From assembly GCA_021802375.1 (NCBI GenBank), contig JAKAAL010000239.1, positions 1 to 6,599 on the forward strand: DNA of 6,599 nt, in the 5' to 3' direction. A model generated the notes under the pieces. The model saw only the letters and a program-made list of their open reading frames with translations. It ran no database searches and had not been told where the DNA came from. Shown here piece after piece: positions 1-6,599 of this stretch. The stretch comes from Bacillota bacterium (GTDB lineage Bacteria > Bacillota_E > Sulfobacillia > Sulfobacillales > Sulfobacillaceae). Positions within the stretch are counted from its first letter, which is position 1, and each line of letters begins with the position of its first letter. A program made the position numbers and the translations under genes.

Positions 1-48
1 GATCCATTGGTATTAAACGATGGAATGAGGGTGAGAGGAGGTTCTATT

Positions 49-147
49 ATGGCCTTTGTGGAGACCGTGTTCTTGACCGCAGTCCCACTCTTTGTGGCAG
101 TCGTCGTCATATTGGCGGTAACGCTTTTGAAGGATTATTCCTTTTGA
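49..147 (+). CDS. 32-residue single-helix membrane protein
   Basis: This small gene is seen directly in the sequence. It has an ATG at 49, a perfect AGGAGGT ribosome binding site at 36-42 with a 6-base spacer, and a TGA stop at 145-147. The product is 32 residues: a short start (MAFVETVF), one hydrophobic helix covering roughly residues 8-27, and a short polar end (KDYSF). I do not recognise a family. Tiny one-helix proteins often accompany terminal oxidases (CydX- or CcoQ-like subunits, for example), and the neighbouring oxidase operon makes that kind of role possible, but this is inference only. It converges on the minus-strand gene at 151-258 with only three bases between the stop codons. 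The strong ribosome binding site is the main reason to believe it is real. Confidence 0.6.
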   Translation: MAFVETVFLTAVPLFVAVVVILAVTLLKDYSF

Positions 148-150
148 TCA

Positions 151-258
151 TTAGTCGTCGTCACGCGCATGTCCCTTTTTACGCTCGCCAATTCCGACAA
201 TAGTCACGAGGATTAGGGCAGCTACGAAGATTAGGGCGGAAATGAGCGTGAAGTTCAT
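151..258 (-). CDS. 35-residue single-helix membrane protein
   Basis: The gene reads on the minus strand from an ATG at 258-256 to a TAA at 153-151. An AAGGAGG site occupies 272-266 with a 7-base spacer, which favours this short start over the longer open frame that continues upstream to 570 through the antisense of another gene. The product is 35 residues: MNFT, then a hydrophobic helix at about residues 5-23, then a very charged tail (GERKKGHARDDD). This layout suggests a single-pass protein with a cytoplasmic tail. No family is recognised. It is divergent from the 353-586 gene and convergent with the 49-147 gene. A role as an accessory peptide of a membrane complex is possible but unproven. 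Confidence 0.55.
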   Translation of the reverse strand: MNFTLISALIFVAALILVTIVGIGERKKGHARDDD

Positions 259-305
259 GAAGGGCCCTCCTTTTGACAAAAAACGAATGATGGCATGCGT
301 ACGAT

Positions 306-334
306 ATTGTAGCGTAAAGGGTGGCCGGTGACGA
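306..334 (-). promoter_or_regulatory. possible promoter for the 35-residue gene
   Basis: On the minus strand there is TCGTCA at 334-329 (4 of 6 matches to the -35 consensus), a 17-base spacer, and TACAAT at 311-306 (5 of 6 matches to the -10 consensus). Transcription would start near 299, giving a leader of about 40 bases before the ATG at 258. The call rests on consensus matching alone. Confidence 0.3.
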
Positions 335-352
335 GACATAAAGGGGCTTGTC

Positions 353-586
353 ATGAGTGATTTGGTATGGACATATCTGGGGTTACTGGCGTCTTCAGTT
401 AGTGGTGCTTTTTTATTTTTCGGGTTCGCGCTATTTGGTCCCCCCAAGCGCCGACCAGGTAAGTCTGGCGCTGTAACGCTGCCACGAAAAACCTTGCCAT
501 TTCGATGGGTCAGCCTGCATGTGATCTTGGCGACCGTTACCTTGGGGCTTTTCACGATGACCGTGATCACGATGCCGGGCCACTAG
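353..586 (+). CDS. 77-residue two-helix membrane protein
   Basis: ATG at 353 follows AAAGGGG at 340-346 with a 6-base spacer; the stop is TAG at 584-586. The product has two hydrophobic segments, about residues 5-29 and 52-74, joined by a basic loop containing KRRP (32-35) and several more Lys and Arg residues. By the positive-inside rule the loop should be cytoplasmic and both ends external. His56 sits at the start of helix 2 in an LH motif. The next gene (665-979) has the same plan: an aromatic W-x-Y near the N-terminus, a KRRP loop, and R....LH leading into helix 2, so the two look like divergent tandem copies. No known family is recognised. It begins the + strand run that leads to the oxidase operon, so a role in the respiratory membrane is possible but not shown. 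Confidence 0.6.
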   Translation: MSDLVWTYLGLLASSVSGAFLFFGFALFGPPKRRPGKSGAVTLPRKTLPFRWVSLHVILATVTLGLFTMTVITMPGH

Positions 587-664
587 GCTTGGGATCCGTT
601 GCCTGCGTCTAAATCTTTCCCGTTGCACCCTCGGCTCGGTGTTCGAAAGGAAGCGCTCTTTCTC

Positions 665-979
665 ATGACGTACTGGATTTACGTGGCTTATGGAACATAT
701 CTGGTGACCTATTTAACGGGGTTAAGTTTTTATTTCCGGTTTGATGCGAAAAGGCGTCCCTTGCGTCGTCGATTGTTGGGGCTACACCTTGTCATGGCCG
801 TGCTAACCTTTATTACGTTGACTTCTGCGATGGCGATTTATGCCTTTCCAAGTGCCACCTCGCGACCGCAAACCAGCCGTCGCTCGACCATGTGGTACGA
901 TGCACGACAACATCGCGCTGAGCTCAAGCAATATCAGGCAACCCACTCCGGTAACTTGCCTACCGGACTCGGGCAGTGA
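665..979 (+). CDS. 104-residue two-helix membrane protein, relative of the preceding gene
   Basis: I place the start at ATG 665, where the protein begins MTYWIYVAYG and lines up with the N-terminus of the 353-586 product. AAAGGAA at 646-652 is the nearest Shine-Dalgarno-like sequence, although its spacing is long. A TTG at 599 in the same frame would add 22 residues without hydrophobic character. The product has helix 1 at about residues 4-24, a basic loop with KRRP (29-32) followed by an Arg cluster, and helix 2 at about 38-60 beginning with LGLH (His41). A polar tail of about 40 residues, with several Arg and Gln, is absent from the shorter relative. The paired histidines entering helix 2 could bind a cofactor, but that is speculation. 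No family is recognised. The gap to the next gene is 30 bases, so the two are probably co-transcribed. Confidence 0.6.
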   Translation: MTYWIYVAYGTYLVTYLTGLSFYFRFDAKRRPLRRRLLGLHLVMAVLTFITLTSAMAIYAFPSATSRPQTSRRSTMWYDARQHRAELKQYQATHSGNLPTGLGQ

Positions 980-1009
980 GATAGATGAAGGCAGGCGGGG
1001 AGATGTTTT

Positions 1010-1789
1010 ATGACTAAACTCTGGACAGAATCGTGGGAGCGTTCATGGACCTATTGGCAAAGTGCTTGGAAAAAGAACTGGCTGGTACCCATGGGCGTCG
1101 CCGCAATCGCTTTGGCGTTGTGGTCTCTTGTAAATCCGGCCGTGGTCCCGTTTCTATTCTTTCGGATCCAACCGATTAACGATCCGATTATTGGGATCGC
1201 ATTTAACCATAATCTATGGGCTCTCTCGGCCTCATGGGGACGGATCCTCGTTAGCAGTGTGGTGTTAATGGGCGTCGGAATCTGGATCAGTCAGCGTATC
1301 GTTGGCAGTACGCTTACGTCTCGGGTCCGTGCCTCGGCGAGTATTATGGCCGGTTTTCTGTTGATGCTGTCGTGGGCCGCGCTGGCGATTATGGGGGTGC
1401 CGATTTTTCCTGGAAAGGGGCATCCCGGACTAAATATAGGGATTACGGGCCTGTTGGTGATTGCGATTTTACCGATGATGTTTTGGTGGTGGCCATGGCG
1501 GGTAGAAAATCCAACAGGATCCGTCAGAGATTTCTTTGGATGGTTCGGCACCTTTCTACTTGAAAAACTGCTGATGGCATGGGCGTGGTTGTTAGGGATA
1601 GCGGTCGCCGAGATGTTAGCAGCAGGAATGGCATGGACCACATTTTCACCGTTCGTCGGCATGGTTGTGCTATCCGGGATATCGATAGGGTTATGCGGGT
1701 TTATGTGGAAGACGGCTCGTTTCTACGTTTCTGGCGTCCGGGATGAACAACCGGTGAAGCCGGCACGTGACACGGTAATCCTGGACTGA
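1010..1789 (+). CDS. 259-residue six-helix membrane protein of unknown function
   Basis: ATG at 1010 has GGGGAG at 997-1002 with a 7-base spacer; the stop ends at 1789. The protein opens with a Trp-rich amphipathic stretch (residues 5-24), then about six membrane segments near 24-50, 78-97, 108-130, 143-162, 183-206 and 213-234. It ends in a polar tail of about 25 residues. Conspicuous features are a run of Trp before residue 164 (FWWWPWR, 158-164) and a loop holding GKGHPG (135-140). There are no CXXCH, iron-sulfur or nucleotide-binding motifs. I do not recognise a family. Its place between the two small membrane proteins and the cupredoxin suggests an accessory, assembly or transport role for the respiratory chain, but nothing in the sequence fixes that. 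About 100 bases without a gene separate it from the cupredoxin. Confidence 0.65.
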   Translation: MTKLWTESWERSWTYWQSAWKKNWLVPMGVAAIALALWSLVNPAVVPFLFFRIQPINDPIIGIAFNHNLWALSASWGRILVSSVVLMGVGIWISQRIVGSTLTSRVRASASIMAGFLLMLSWAALAIMGVPIFPGKGHPGLNIGITGLLVIAILPMMFWWWPWRVENPTGSVRDFFGWFGTFLLEKLLMAWAWLLGIAVAEMLAAGMAWTTFSPFVGMVVLSGISIGLCGFMWKTARFYVSGVRDEQPVKPARDTVILD

Positions 1790-1820: not shown

Positions 1821-1872
1821 GGAAGGATATTGTGAAGTGTTGTCGAAGTCTATTATGGTTTTCAATATTTCC
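1821..1872 (+). promoter_or_regulatory. possible promoter or operator upstream of the cupredoxin gene
   Basis: The 101-base gap before the cupredoxin contains TATTAT at 1851-1856 (5 of 6 to the -10 consensus). A weak TTGTGA at 1830-1835 lies 15 bases upstream, shorter than the ideal spacing. An imperfect inverted repeat brackets this: GGAAGGATATTGTGAA at 1821-1836 against TTTTCAATATTTCC at 1859-1872. It could be an operator or a leader hairpin. There is no T-run, so it does not look like an intrinsic terminator. The call is tentative. Confidence 0.25.
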
Positions 1873-1890
1873 TGAGAGGAGGTAGAATCG

Positions 1891-2532
1891 TTGGACGAGC
1901 GGCAGGATTCGCGCCAAGATGAATCATCGGTAGCATTGCCTAACTGGAGTCGCCGGAAATTTATCCTAGGAAGTACCGGGATTGCGGTGGCAGGCATGGC
2001 CGCATTATGGGCTCGTACGCCAATTGTCAGTGCGGCACGCGGGGTATTTGGATCTCCTGTGGACACCGGACTTATTCATGTCTACCAAGAAGATTTTTAC
2101 TTTGTGCCAAATTACATGACATGGCAAGTGGGAAACAAGATGACCATGCGGCTACATAACATGAGCACAACGCGGTGGCACGAGATGCAAATTGGCCGCC
2201 ATGTGAGTCACGAGAACACGGTATTTGGAACGTTGACGGCCGATGGTTTTACCGAGGACTTCTGGGCTGGCGTACCGGTAACCTTCAGTAATCCGTACAA
2301 AATCGACAACTTAGTGTACAACAAGGCGATTCCGACCTTTATTGGACCCAAGTCCGAATACAAGTTGACGACCGGGGGTTCTTTTAGCCCGACACTTAAA
2401 CCCGGCGGGCATATTGATATTACGTTCGTGGTGCCTGACAAGCCCGGCATTTGGCAATACGGGTGTTTCGTGCAAAACGCCGCGCATTGGCGGTTTGGGA
2501 TGCGCGGTACGCTGAATGTGATCAAGGCCTAG
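1891..2532 (+). CDS. Tat-exported cupredoxin-like blue copper protein
   Basis: The start is TTG at 1891, chosen because AGGAGGT lies at 1877-1883 with a 7-base spacer. The 213-residue product opens with a twin-arginine signal: SRRKFIL at 20-26, a hydrophobic stretch to about 41, and a likely cleavage region near SAA (47-49). The mature part looks like a single cupredoxin domain. Candidate type 1 copper ligands are His97 (in WHEM), Cys192, His199 and Met204, giving C-x6-H-x4-M near the C-terminus. About 95 residues lie between the first His and the Cys, more than in plastocyanin-size proteins and more like the larger rusticyanin or sulfocyanin class, though I cannot assign a subfamily. Tat export implies that it folds, possibly with its metal, before crossing the membrane. 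Directly upstream of a CuA oxidase with no heme c proteins nearby, it is a plausible electron donor to subunit II. Another cupredoxin role, such as copper delivery, cannot be excluded. Confidence 0.75.
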   Translation: MDERQDSRQDESSVALPNWSRRKFILGSTGIAVAGMAALWARTPIVSAARGVFGSPVDTGLIHVYQEDFYFVPNYMTWQVGNKMTMRLHNMSTTRWHEMQIGRHVSHENTVFGTLTADGFTEDFWAGVPVTFSNPYKIDNLVYNKAIPTFIGPKSEYKLTTGGSFSPTLKPGGHIDITFVVPDKPGIWQYGCFVQNAAHWRFGMRGTLNVIKA

Positions 2533-2600
2533 GGGTGTCTCACGTGGGGCATTTCCAGGCTTTAGTACACTAAATGTTCGAAGAAAGGAGGCGATTCCTC

Positions 2601-3422
2601 ATGGGAAGCCTTGTGGTGTTTGGAATACTATGGGTGGTGGGCTCATTGCTGGGCGAATGGGGAGCCACCGCTTGGATTAATTCCGCGCCAAACGGCGCGG
2701 GGCCTTATTTCGGAACAGCGTCCAACCTCGGGATAGTCGGCGTGCACGCCTTCGACTTTTTAGTATGGGTGGCCGTCCCGATTTTTGTCTTTGTAGTACT
2801 CATGATCGTGTTTGCGATGGTGAAATTTCGCGCCGGTCGGGGCGAGAAGCTGACTGAGGCTCCGTCTCAAGTGCGAAACAATAAAGTCTTTGTCGGAACC
2901 TGGATCCTCATTAGTATCCTGTTGAACATCCTGATTTGGCTACACCCCAATGCGAGTGGCTTAGAGCAGGTATTTGCCGCGCAATTGCCGTCCAATAACC
3001 AAAAGCCTCTGGTGGTGGATGTGACTGCGCGCCAATGGGAGTGGATCTTCAGCTATCCTCAGTATCACATCACGCAATCGTTGAATGCGAATGGACAAGA
3101 CACCTTGTACATGCCGGTCAATCGGCCGGTTGAGTTTGTCTTGCGATCGTATGATCCGTTTCACAGTTATGCACATCAGGTCGATGTCATCCATGGCTTT
3201 TGGATTCCGGCATTTGGCGTGAAGATGGATGTCATTCCCGGCGAAACCCGGGTTCTTTATCTCACCGCCACCCAGTTGCTTTCCACCGAAAGTAATCCAA
3301 TGGCGCGCGTCCAGTGCTCTGAGGTCTGTGGACCGGGTCATCCGTACATGGAGGCCAACTTGCACGTCGTGACCGGATCCCAATTTGCTGCGTGGGCTAA
3401 AGCGCAGGCTGCAAATGGGTAA
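2601..3422 (+). CDS. ctaC: Cytochrome c oxidase subunit II (CuA)
   Basis: This is the oxidase subunit that takes electrons from the external donor through the binuclear CuA centre and passes them to heme a in subunit I. I use ATG 2601, because AAGGAGG at 2585-2591 sits 9 bases before it; an ATG at 2574 in frame lies upstream of that site and has none of its own. The 273-residue product has an N-terminal hydrophobic segment (2-20; signal or anchor), two membrane helices (about 54-78 and 96-115), then an external CuA domain. The aromatic electron-entry patch is QWEW (145-148). CuA ligands are all present: His198 (VIHGFWIP), Cys239, Glu241 (backbone), Cys243, His247 and Met250 in CSEVCGPGHPYM. 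The protein ends shortly afterwards, so it lacks the fused cytochrome c domain of Bacillus caa3 enzymes and needs a separate donor. ctaD follows after 51 bases. Confidence 0.95.
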   Translation: MGSLVVFGILWVVGSLLGEWGATAWINSAPNGAGPYFGTASNLGIVGVHAFDFLVWVAVPIFVFVVLMIVFAMVKFRAGRGEKLTEAPSQVRNNKVFVGTWILISILLNILIWLHPNASGLEQVFAAQLPSNNQKPLVVDVTARQWEWIFSYPQYHITQSLNANGQDTLYMPVNRPVEFVLRSYDPFHSYAHQVDVIHGFWIPAFGVKMDVIPGETRVLYLTATQLLSTESNPMARVQCSEVCGPGHPYMEANLHVVTGSQFAAWAKAQAANG

Positions 3423-3473
3423 CGACCGCGCGATTTATGTCCAAAATAAGGTGTTTTAGAGGAGGTTACAGTC

Positions 3474-5357
3474 ATGGCACAACCCTTAACCAAGGGCGAG
3501 TCGGCACCGAAGCCGAGACCAGTGGCACCTTTGCCTCCGGTATTGCGTGGGTTCCTGTGGGCGGCGATCGGATTCGTTCTGCTTGCAGCGATGGCGGCAT
3601 GGCTCGATCCGAGCCCTGTCAGTCCCTATCTTACGGCGGTCGGTGCCATAGCAGGCTGGTTCGGAGCCGTCATTGGTTGGCTTTTGGGTATCGGCGGATA
3701 CGAGCATATCGTCAAGCCTATGATGGGATTTCCAGCGCCTCCGGTGAGGACCTCGGGCTGGCGCCGATACTACGAATATGCGCTGGATCATAAGGTGATT
3801 GGCCTTCAATATCTTGGGGCCTCAACCGGAACATTTTTTATCGCGGGTCTCATCGCGATGGCGATGCGCTTTCAGTTGATGAGCTATCGGCCGACCCTGT
3901 TCCATTACCCGCAAGACTATCTCAATGCGGTGGGCATCCATGGGACCTTAATGATGTTTACCGTGGCGACGGTTGCCATGGTCGGGGGGCTCGGCAACTA
4001 TTTTGTGCCGCTGATGATCGGTACGCGGGAGACCATGTTTCCAAAGGCCTCCGGACTATCGGTGTGGCTCGTGCCGTTAGGCGTGTTGACCGTGGCGATG
4101 TCCCCGTTGTTGGGACAATGGACGACCGGATGGCGGGGCTATGAGCCGCTGGCCGCTTCGGATGGCAGTGGACTACTTTATTACTACATGGGAGTCTTTG
4201 CGCTGACCACGTCGTCCTTGATTGTGGCCATCAATTTGACGGCCACGATTCTCTTTAAGCGGACCAAAGGCATGACCTGGAATCGCCTTCCCTTATTTGC
4301 CTGGGGGATTCTTACGGTCTCTCTTTTGAACATCATCTGGCTTCCAGAGATTCAAACGACGTTTGTTTTAGGAATGTTAGACAAAGTTATGCCGCTTAAT
4401 CTCTTTAACGTGTTTGGACAACCTCTGGGATATGAGTATTTGTTCTGGTTGTTTGGACATCCCGAGGTTTACATCGTTGTATTGCCCGCCTTGGCGATCT
4501 GGAGCGAGATCATTCCGGTGATGGGAAGAAAGTCGCTATTTGCCCGACCGATTGCTGTACTTGGGCTAGTGTTTGTGATGTTGTTGTCCGGAATGGTGTG
4601 GGCCCATCACATGTTTACCATGATGCGCTACAGTGAGATGTTGCCGTTTTCGTTCTTCACGGAAATGATTTCAATTCCCACCGGATTTGCTTACCTGGCC
4701 GTGATCGGGACGCTGTGGAACTCGCGGCTACGCCTGACAACGCCGACGCTCTTGGTTTTAATGAGCATGTTCAACTTCCTAATTGGCGGATTAACCGGAC
4801 TCTTTTTGGCAGACGTTCCCGCCAACCTTCAATTACACAACACCTTCTTTGTGGTGGGGCATTTTCATTACACCATCATTGGGGGCATGGTGTTCAGTTG
4901 GATGGCTGCCATGTACTATTGGCTACCGAAGTTCTCGGGGCGAACATACAGCGAGTTCTGGGGTAAATTTGGGGCGATTTGGGTCTTTGTGGCCTTTAAT
5001 GCGACCTTCCTCAACTTCTTTATCCTCGGGCTCCACGGTATGAACCGATGGGTCAGTGCCTATCCGAAGTACCTGCAACCGGAAAACTTTTGGACGTCCA
5101 TTGCAGCGTTCCTTCTGGGTGCGGGGTTTGCCATCAACACGATCCATATTATTTGGGCATGGGTCAAGGGTCCCAAAGTTCGAGAGAATCCATGGGATGC
5201 CAAGACGTTGGAATGGCGGACTTCATCTCCCCCGCCCACCAAAAACTTCGACACGCTACCGGTCGTTGTGGGTAGTTTTTATACCTACGGGGAAGGCGTG
5301 CCGGATCCGGTTGAAGTTCCAGTTGCTGGGATAGATACCAAAGACTCTCGCGGCTAA
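3474..5357 (+). CDS. ctaD: Cytochrome c oxidase subunit I, aa3-type, with atypical proton-channel residues
   Basis: This is the catalytic subunit, which reduces O2 to water at heme a3-CuB and pumps protons. ATG 3474 has AGGAGGT at 3460-3466, 7 bases away. The product is 627 residues. Metal ligands are complete: heme a His156 (GIHGTLMMF) and His465, heme a3 His463 (GHFHY), CuB His329, His378 and His379. Tyr333 in GHPEVY is the cross-linked tyrosine, and Glu331 marks an A1-type D-pathway. The C-terminal LEW..SSPPP signature (579-588) is also typical. Unusual points, by alignment from memory with Rhodobacter aa3: Ala406 replaces the K-channel Lys (PTGIK becomes PTGFA), Glu186 replaces the D-channel entrance Asp, Ser193 a conserved Asn, Asn451 and Asn456 two Asp near the propionates and Mg, and Trp526 the second Arg of the RR pair. 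Residues 1-95 add two extra membrane helices (about 24-44 and 54-74) before canonical helix I. There are no cysteines. Confidence 0.95.
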   Translation: MAQPLTKGESAPKPRPVAPLPPVLRGFLWAAIGFVLLAAMAAWLDPSPVSPYLTAVGAIAGWFGAVIGWLLGIGGYEHIVKPMMGFPAPPVRTSGWRRYYEYALDHKVIGLQYLGASTGTFFIAGLIAMAMRFQLMSYRPTLFHYPQDYLNAVGIHGTLMMFTVATVAMVGGLGNYFVPLMIGTRETMFPKASGLSVWLVPLGVLTVAMSPLLGQWTTGWRGYEPLAASDGSGLLYYYMGVFALTTSSLIVAINLTATILFKRTKGMTWNRLPLFAWGILTVSLLNIIWLPEIQTTFVLGMLDKVMPLNLFNVFGQPLGYEYLFWLFGHPEVYIVVLPALAIWSEIIPVMGRKSLFARPIAVLGLVFVMLLSGMVWAHHMFTMMRYSEMLPFSFFTEMISIPTGFAYLAVIGTLWNSRLRLTTPTLLVLMSMFNFLIGGLTGLFLADVPANLQLHNTFFVVGHFHYTIIGGMVFSWMAAMYYWLPKFSGRTYSEFWGKFGAIWVFVAFNATFLNFFILGLHGMNRWVSAYPKYLQPENFWTSIAAFLLGAGFAINTIHIIWAWVKGPKVRENPWDAKTLEWRTSSPPPTKNFDTLPVVVGSFYTYGEGVPDPVEVPVAGIDTKDSRG

Positions 5358-5393
5358 CGGCCTCGGAATGTTTGCCGAAAGGAGCAGTATAGG

Positions 5394-5780
5394 ATGTCCG
5401 TGAAAAATCCCTCACCAGCCCAAGAAAATGGCCTCGAAATTAAACACTATCGGGCGGGGTTTTCGTTGTTTTTGATTAGCCAGGGAGTGGTGTTCCTGGT
5501 ATTGATTGCCGTGCGTTATCTCATCGCCGGTTCGAAGGTCGGCCCCTATAGCCAGTGGTTGGGGGCCGCAGTGACCATCGTCATGTTATGGAGTGCGATC
5601 CATAATTTGATCGATGTCTCGGTCGTACCACATGTTCACGGCATGAGCGCCGCCCGCCGAAACCGCCAGACCGCCAAGCGTCCACAATGTCACGCCCCAG
5701 GGAGGGACCCCATGCGAGGCCACCACCATCGCGCAATAGGCCGTAATCATCAGCCATACCACGATGCCGGGCTTGGTTAG
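5394..5780 (+). CDS. ctaE: Cytochrome c oxidase subunit III, N-terminal part, broken by a fold-back junction
   Basis: ATG 5394 has AAAGGAG at 5378-5384, 9 bases upstream, and lies 36 bases after ctaD. Residues 1-69 (5394-5599) are authentic subunit III: a polar start, helix 1 at about 21-44 and helix 2 at about 53-68. At 5599 the sequence switches to the antisense of ctaB. Everything after residue 69 up to the stop at 5780 is therefore a nonsense tail rich in Arg, His and Pro with no membrane character. The missing remainder is present on the minus strand at 6146-6506. Joining 5394-5599 to it gives an uninterrupted 188-residue, five-helix protein of normal length for the short bacterial CtaE type. 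The break is a rearrangement or artefact, not gradual decay, because both halves keep open frames. Confidence 0.85.
   Translation: MSVKNPSPAQENGLEIKHYRAGFSLFLISQGVVFLVLIAVRYLIAGSKVGPYSQWLGAAVTIVMLWSAIHNLIDVSVVPHVHGMSAARRNRQTAKRPQCHAPGRDPMRGHHHRAIGRNHQPYHDAGLG
5507..5599 (+). repeat. 93-bp perfect inverted repeat, left copy (within ctaE)
   Basis: These bases are the exact reverse complement of 6507-6599, base for base by direct comparison. Identity stops at 5600 (C here, T in the complement of 6506). The repeat encodes subunit III residues 39-69. The two copies are separated by 907 bases. Confidence 0.97.
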
Positions 5781-5870
5781 GGCCAAGTAATCGCGCCCTA
5801 CTTCAATCCACCGCTGGGGCGTACTAAGCGCGAACGCTGTTTCATTATCGCCCGAAGGCAGGTTTTGCAT
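5586..5870 (-). CDS. ctaB: Protoheme IX farnesyltransferase (heme O synthase), N-terminal part, truncated
   Basis: CtaB/CyoE is a UbiA-family membrane prenyltransferase that attaches a farnesyl group to heme b to make heme O, the precursor of heme A needed by this oxidase. The ATG at 5870 is 17 bases after the stop of the 72-residue gene, with only a weak G-rich Shine-Dalgarno. Residues 27-36 (DYLALTKPGI) match the LTKP start of the first helix. Helices follow at about 36-52 and 60-78. The prenyl-diphosphate Mg motif NxxxDxxxD is Asn79, Asp83 and Asp87, followed by MDRT (90-93). The frame then gives one Pro and a stop, which come from inverted ctaE DNA. Full-length family members run to roughly 280-310 residues, so about two-thirds is missing. 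The cut is at the same fold-back junction that breaks ctaE, so the gene is probably intact in the organism. Confidence 0.88.
   Translation of the reverse strand: MQNLPSGDNETAFALSTPQRWIEVGRDYLALTKPGIVVWLMITAYCAMVVASHGVPPWGVTLWTLGGLAVSAGGAHAVNMWYDRDIDQIMDRTP
5592..5600. other. Fold-back junction between ctaE and inverted ctaB
   Basis: The + strand reads as ctaE up to 5599, and the minus strand reads as ctaB down to about 5592, where the conserved Asp-Arg-Thr codons (gat cgc act) lie. The bases at about 5592-5599 (AGTGCGAT) fit both genes, indicating a short shared sequence of 7-8 bases at the crossover. This is typical of template-switch chimeras and of microhomology-mediated inversions. Confidence 0.85.
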
Positions 5871-5887
5871 CCCGTATTCCCTACCCC

Positions 5888-6106
5888 CTATCCGGATATT
5901 CCTGGCCCTTGTGGTTGCGTCTGCTTGACGGGGCGATCCATCGGCTTTTGGTATTCGCGGTCAAACGATAGCGCCCAATGACGAAGCAGCAAGACCATCG
6001 TGGTCATGACAACGAGTTGGAAAATCCACCAGAAAATATCCCACCAATGGGAGATACCCGGGGAATGAGGGATGCGGAAGGGAAGAGTCGGAAAAAAGTG
6101 ATGCAT
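5888..6106 (-). CDS. 72-residue single-helix protein of the oxidase operon
   Basis: The minus-strand ATG at 6106-6104 is preceded by AAAGGAGA (6120-6113) with a 6-base spacer; the stop is TAG at 5890-5888. The product starts with a His-, Phe- and Pro-rich segment (MHHFFPTLPF), has one hydrophobic helix at about residues 22-42 rich in Trp (WWDIFWW), and ends in a charged, Pro- and Gln-rich tail. In restored operon order it lies between ctaE (39-base gap) and ctaB (17-base gap). That is where small subunit IV-like or assembly proteins often occur. I see no clear similarity to CtaF, CtaG or SURF1, so the function is left open. It lies entirely inside the inverted segment and is itself intact. 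Confidence 0.65.
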   Translation of the reverse strand: MHHFFPTLPFRIPHSPGISHWWDIFWWIFQLVVMTTMVLLLRHWALSFDREYQKPMDRPVKQTQPQGPGISG

Positions 6107-6145
6107 GGTTAATCTCCTTTCTCTTGCCGATTTAGCAAAGTCGAG

Positions 6146-6598
6146 CTAGATTAAGAAAAACGCAATCCAAAGTGCCACCCATCCCATCGCCACGAGTGAC
6201 CAAAAGCGTGAACTCGCTTCCAAGTCCCAATGACTTTCGGGTGAATAACCCACCCGCATCCCGCGCGACCGCGCGGCGAATAGTACAAAGAGCCCCAATA
6301 GGTCGTAAAATAGCCAAAATCCCGTAGCCGCCCAGAAAACTTCGAGCGATGGCATCTTGATGGGATACCCACCTGCCCGAACGCCAATCCACGTAAGAAT
6401 AACCAAGACAAAGGCTAACGCCCCAAGCCAAAAAGCTCCGTGTAGTCGCTTTAGTATGGCTTCATGGTCTCCCTGTTCAGCCGCCATATTGGCACGCTTG
6501 GCCTGAATCGCACTCCATAACATGACGATGGTCACTGCGGCCCCCAACCACTGGCTATAGGGGCCGACCTTCGAACCGGCGATGAGATAACGCACGGC
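6146..6598 (-). CDS. ctaE: Cytochrome c oxidase subunit III, residues 39-188, cut by the window edge
   Basis: This minus-strand frame is open at the right edge and stops with TAG at 6148-6146. Its first 31 codons duplicate residues 39-69 of the ctaE copy starting at 5394; the rest is the part missing there. A GTG at 6595 looks like a start but is internal Val40. With full-length numbering there are helices at about 92-112, 126-148 and 168-187, in addition to the first two. The C-terminal pattern HWDLEASSRFW matches the COX3 signature HW..EAA..YWH, but with Ser where the His is usually found. Subunit III stabilises subunit I and supports proton uptake at the D-channel entrance, which is notable given the altered entrance in this subunit I. 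I call it CtaE from the C-terminal motif, the helix count and the operon position. Confidence 0.85.
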   Translation of the reverse strand, partial: AVRYLIAGSKVGPYSQWLGAAVTIVMLWSAIQAKRANMAAEQGDHEAILKRLHGAFWLGALAFVLVILTWIGVRAGGYPIKMPSLEVFWAATGFWLFYDLLGLFVLFAARSRGMRVGYSPESHWDLEASSRFWSLVAMGWVALWIAFFLI

Positions 6599-6599
6599 A
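6507..6599 (-). repeat. 93-bp perfect inverted repeat, right copy (window edge)
   Basis: This is the exact reverse complement of 5507-5599, ending at the last base of the window. The repeat may extend beyond the edge. If it does, the sequence would continue as a large palindrome back through ctaE and ctaD. Confidence 0.97.

Follow-up and report, generated by a model that had tools for sequence, protein, structure and literature searches.

Does a bacterium related to the acid-loving Sulfobacillus carry a cytochrome c oxidase operon that folds back on itself, or was the fold made in vitro? The window analysed here, the whole stretch of 6,599 bp, ends in an oxidase operon whose last part is reversed behind a long inverted repeat. 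A sequence-only reading had preferred a fold-back chimera or misassembly, and had set against it an invertible switch of subunit III and a real inverted duplication. Our analysis indicates that the end of the window is very probably an in vitro fold-back (template-switch) chimera, stopped short by a de Bruijn assembler. The feature is most likely an artefact, with nothing new in biology.

The inverted repeat and the reversed loop

Bases 5507–5599 (+) and 6507–6599 (−) are exact reverse complements over 93 of 93 bases, just as had been claimed. The left arm occupies its normal position in ctaE. Because the window is an entire contig, the right arm stops at the contig end; in a protein collection, the sole contig behind P0006, the window's own chimeric 128-aa open reading frame, is likewise 6,599 bp long. 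A repeat finder lengthened the arms to 96 bp at 99%, with the first mismatch lying immediately inside the exact arms (C at 5600, T in the second copy). Elsewhere in the window, exact inverted matches reach 12 bp at most. In each of 36 related loci (28 genomes in all, with overlap between some loci), the maximum lies between 10 and 26 bp. The 93-bp repeat is therefore far above chance expectation. A natural 93-bp repeat element was also considered and rejected, as the ctaE–ctaB region of four related loci (L001–L004, described below) holds no comparable repeat.

Between the arms lies a 907-bp loop (5600–6506, −) that carries the rest of ctaE, a small gene and the start of ctaB, and that corresponds to the native downstream stretch written backwards, with reverse matches to L001 (75%) and L002 (73%). 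The ctaE gene, encoding cytochrome c oxidase subunit III, is split by this arrangement. Its 5′ part (5394–5599, +) runs up to the chimeric junction within a blastn alignment to L001 (1868–5602, 82% identity) and opens a 188-codon frame. Its 3′ part, together with the second copy of the arm, forms a 150-residue open frame (6146–6599, −) that shows 89% identity to P0001 along the entire piece (100%) and matches COX3 (PF00510) with E = 6.8e-5 and 23.3 bits, slightly below the Pfam cut-off of 23.8. Flipping 5600–6506 joins both parts into the single continuous 188-codon ctaE that the sequence-only reading had predicted. The restored protein needs no gaps to align with P0001–P0004 (171, 166, 154 and 125 of 188 residues identical, respectively) and a single one for P0005 (126 of 189 columns). 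A search for a native near-identical ctaE in a clustered protein database gave 89% as the best match besides P0006, in clusters at 90% that could hide a closer copy; in the corresponding ctaD search, 93% was the best among the matches listed.

The small gene (5888–6106, −) is an open reading frame of 72 aa whose product has no family match in Pfam or NCBIfam. It sits between ctaE and ctaB in all four of the relatives L001–L004, at 68–79% identity. At 8613–8840 of L001, a stop falls within the stretch aligned to the 72-aa protein, meaning either that the L001 protein is shorter or that its MAG contains an error.

Native gene order and the truncated ctaB

A scan of genome contigs yielded the four related loci, one from a Sulfobacillus MAG (L001) and three from Bacillota MAGs (L002–L004). 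Window positions 1–1730 and 1868–5602 are collinear with L001 at 76% and 82% identity, with 1731–1867 outside both alignments, and 5592–6599 matches the next kilobase of L001 in reverse at 75% identity. The window shares the gene content of the cytochrome c oxidase operon of its Sulfobacillus relatives L001–L004 (subunit II, ctaD, ctaE, small gene, ctaB). Once the loop is read in its native direction, its gene order is also theirs, which bears out the earlier claim that a flip gives normal oxidase-operon order. Unlike the operons of these four relatives, the window has a ctaB that stops at codon 93; that of L001 is complete, at 304 aa.

Comparison with related genomes, which had been suggested as a check, extended this picture. 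In the family of the L001 genome, 34 genomes were searched and 28 matched. By tblastn, ctaE and ctaB were both present on the fetched locus in 14 of the 28, on the same strand and in the order ctaE–ctaB in every case (14/14), with ctaD upstream as well in 13 of these 14. The remaining 14 genomes were represented by short loci, 11 with ctaB and no ctaE and three with ctaE and ctaD and no ctaB; such one-gene loci carry no information on order, and for some genomes a weaker second match existed, which the counts leave out. The real genome most likely holds an ordinary ctaD–ctaE–small gene–ctaB operon. Outside cellular genomes, a search of viral contigs with the ctaE alignment returned 32 pattern-matching stretches, none of which encodes a relative, and a plasmid collection gave a single irrelevant 76-bp Streptomyces match.

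The ctaB fragment (5592–5870, −) comprises the first 93 codons of a heme O synthase gene. It matches UbiA (PF01040) with E = 5.3e-14 over profile positions 1–55 of 250, and TIGR01473 with E = 1.1e-18, under the family cut-off, as expected for a fragment. Past residue 93 (...MDRT), the frame enters ctaE antisense and ends in P-stop. This happens in both orientations of the loop, exactly as the sequence-only reading had it.

Is this ctaB naturally short? An intact counterpart, the 304-aa CtaB protein P0008, is encoded on a different contig of 10,777 bp. It is identical to the window's CtaB over residues 1–93 (93/93), the runner-up among the compared proteins being P0007 at 76%, and continues with KNRPVASGR where the window has P-stop. 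With the L001 CtaB as query, P0008 was among the best 120 of 7,999 scored proteins, and the motif MxRTxxRP, which runs across the truncation point, is present in 120 of these 120. Since P0008 continues normally and the motif is universal in this set, the window's ctaB was most likely cut by the junction, and appears not to be naturally short. Judged solely by the 93 CtaB residues, the source of P0008 may be nearly identical to the window organism.

Junction microhomology and assembly of a proposed fold-back molecule

At the junction lies an 8-bp microhomology, AGTGCGAT at 5592–5599 (+), or ATCGCACT on the other strand, which is common to ctaE and to the ctaB of L001 and is the likely point of template switching. 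Read in the sense of ctaB, the window's junction runs ATTATGG and then ATCGCACTCCATAAC, while the corresponding ctaB sequence of L001 is ATTATGGATCGCACTAAGAACC. The bases ATCGCACT fit both L001 ctaB and the window's ctaE antisense, and the two readings diverge directly after these eight. L001 ctaB carries all 8 of 8 bases, and the ctaB genes of L002–L004 each differ at one or more. From its closest relative, L001, and from residues MDRT of P0008, we infer that the 8-mer is also present in the ctaB of the window organism itself. The two 8-mers would then lie 907 bp apart on the native operon. Were the junction blunt, the chance probability of a match over eight bases would be roughly 4^−8.

Only 5592–5600 is a non-native junction. 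Position 6506/6507 is normal ctaE sequence read backwards, and no molecule need therefore have carried an inverted loop. The earlier description of a reversed 907-bp segment, which had named both 5599/5600 and 6506/6507 as places to check, is refined in this respect.

A fold-back would account for this product as follows. A growing strand whose free 3′ end lay at the 8-mer of either ctaE or ctaB (the product would be the same) would anneal to the complementary 8-mer of the partner gene, 907 bp off, and be extended. The resulting molecule would read ctaD–ctaE up to 5599, then backwards through ctaB and on past ctaE. Represented as an assembly graph, it would branch at the 93-mer 5507–5599, from where the 907-bp loop leads back to the reverse complement of that 93-mer. 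The assembler would take the loop once and be obliged to halt at the shared 93-mer, leaving, by that halt, a repeat as long as the k-mer.

This behavior was reproduced in a toy de Bruijn graph, built from a fold-back molecule that used the window sequence alone, without the native ctaB continuation. At eight of eight k values (55, 77, 85, 89, 93, 97, 101 and 127), the self-complementary terminal arm of the loop unitig was exactly k. At k = 93, the upstream unitig plus one pass of the loop gave the window's end to the last base, including the right arm, in exact length and letters; at the other seven values, smaller k gave a shorter piece of the window and larger k a contig longer than the window. 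Two ways of joining the loop, equal in length, were open to the assembly: one yields the window, the other the same loop in its native direction. The model shows that the arm equals k, not that k was 93. The window's 93-bp arm fits the terminal repeat expected at k = 93 from a loop leading back to its reverse complement, and 93 bp is probably the assembler's k-mer, such that we infer an assembly at this k. The earlier description of a repeat-limited contig end agrees with this, in both the position at which the repeat stops and the length of the arm. In one JGI metagenome pipeline (PMC3764933), SOAPdenovo was run with k = 85, 89, 93, 97, 101 and 105.

The junction can be compared with published chimeras from multiple-displacement amplification (MDA). 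In PMC1855051, 406 of 475 chimeras from a single E. coli cell were inverted, 337 of them joining segments less than 10 kb apart, and 76.8% of junctions had complementarity of at least 2 bp, up to 21. A larger re-analysis (PMC4595205) places overlaps mostly at 5–8 nt with a peak at 6; the joined segments lay between 0 and about 5,000 nt apart, with the distribution peaking at 250–300 nt. The window's 8 nt and 907 bp fall within both of these ranges, at a distance off the 250–300 nt peak. As in the phi29 inverted chimeras of PMC1855051, the second segment of the window is inverted (reverse relative to both L001 and L002), comes from less than 10 kb away (907 bp) and shows short junction complementarity, with 8 of 8 bases on the ctaB of L001 lying inside the 2–21 nt span; unlike those chimeras, the window is known as an assembled contig and not as a read. 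The switch therein would have occurred in vitro, during amplification or library preparation. Its source may be MDA or another template switch, as fold-backs from library preparation would look alike; if the sample was unamplified, template switching in library preparation is likelier than MDA.

Alternative origins and neighboring genes

Three other origins were weighed against the fold-back chimera. An invertible switch would use the 93-bp repeats to toggle subunit III, and the layout invites such a reading, with an inverted repeat flanking the segment and one orientation restoring ctaE. Such a switch should leave neighboring genes whole, yet ctaB is truncated whichever way the segment lies, and collinearity holds in all 14 of the genomes whose locus carries both genes. 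In the ctaE–ctaB region (7800–10000) of L001, L002, L003 and L004, inverted pairs of at least 16 nt numbered 0, 3, 0 and 1, the longest of 22 nt and none perfect, and the repeats are not conserved in these relatives. Among the nine proteins of this contig scanned against Pfam and NCBIfam, none matched a recombinase family, and a literature search found no paper on an invertible cytochrome oxidase or a ctaE switch. A genuine oxidase-subunit switch would have been of interest for how respiration is controlled. With ctaB cut either way and the relatives collinear and devoid of comparable repeats, the evidence is against it and we give it a negligible probability; the truncated ctaB, which the sequence-only reading had itself raised as an argument against a functional switch, keeps its force.

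A pure assembler or gap-filling error, in which software made the join with no chimeric read at all, is improbable, if the least so of the three. It is in keeping with a repeat that stops at the contig end, and PMC3764933 attests to pipelines that merge several assemblies; however, the native similarity at the junction, about 8 bp, is too little for joining by k-mers or by the 80-bp overlaps required there. Some reads therefore probably carried the junction. More improbable again is a real fold-back inverted duplication, arising by template switching in vivo in part of a Sulfobacillus-like population and breaking that copy of ctaB. Fold-back events in vivo likewise use short inverted homologies, and as a rare variant such a duplication is compatible with everything observed here. 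Against it, the event would interrupt ctaB, another contig encodes an intact CtaB that shares the first 93 residues, and an inversion is seen in none of the 14 genomes that have both genes on the locus. If it were real, one copy of the heme O synthase gene would be interrupted and the oxidase possibly disabled in those cells. The fold-back chimera or misassembly favored at the outset is supported by the collinear relatives, the intact CtaB with the same 93 residues, the 8-bp microhomology seen with L001 and an arm length matching that expected from a de Bruijn assembler at k = 93.

For the fold-back chimera, the practical consequence is one of database hygiene. The frame at 5394–5780 (+) is a chimeric 128-aa ORF that appears in a protein collection as P0006, and the contig thereby feeds a false fused ctaE protein into such collections. 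A perfect inverted repeat at a contig end, of odd length plausible as a k value and with microhomology at its inner end, may serve as a diagnostic of fold-back chimeras.

The remainder of the window lies upstream of the fold. A gene at 1891–2532 (+), immediately preceding that of oxidase subunit II in the window and in L001 too, encodes a 213-aa protein with a likely signal, SRRKFI, that we take to be a twin-arginine motif. The protein has no Pfam or NCBIfam match. Among solved structures, it is similar in sequence to AcoP (7z3b, E = 2.8e-18, best stretch residues 164–212), presumably a cupredoxin, and could act as an electron carrier for the window's oxidase. Further upstream of the oxidase genes, at 353–1789 (+), lie three ORFs of 77, 126 and 259 aa that have no Pfam or NCBIfam match and look by eye like membrane proteins; their L001 counterparts are 77, 104 and 264 aa long.
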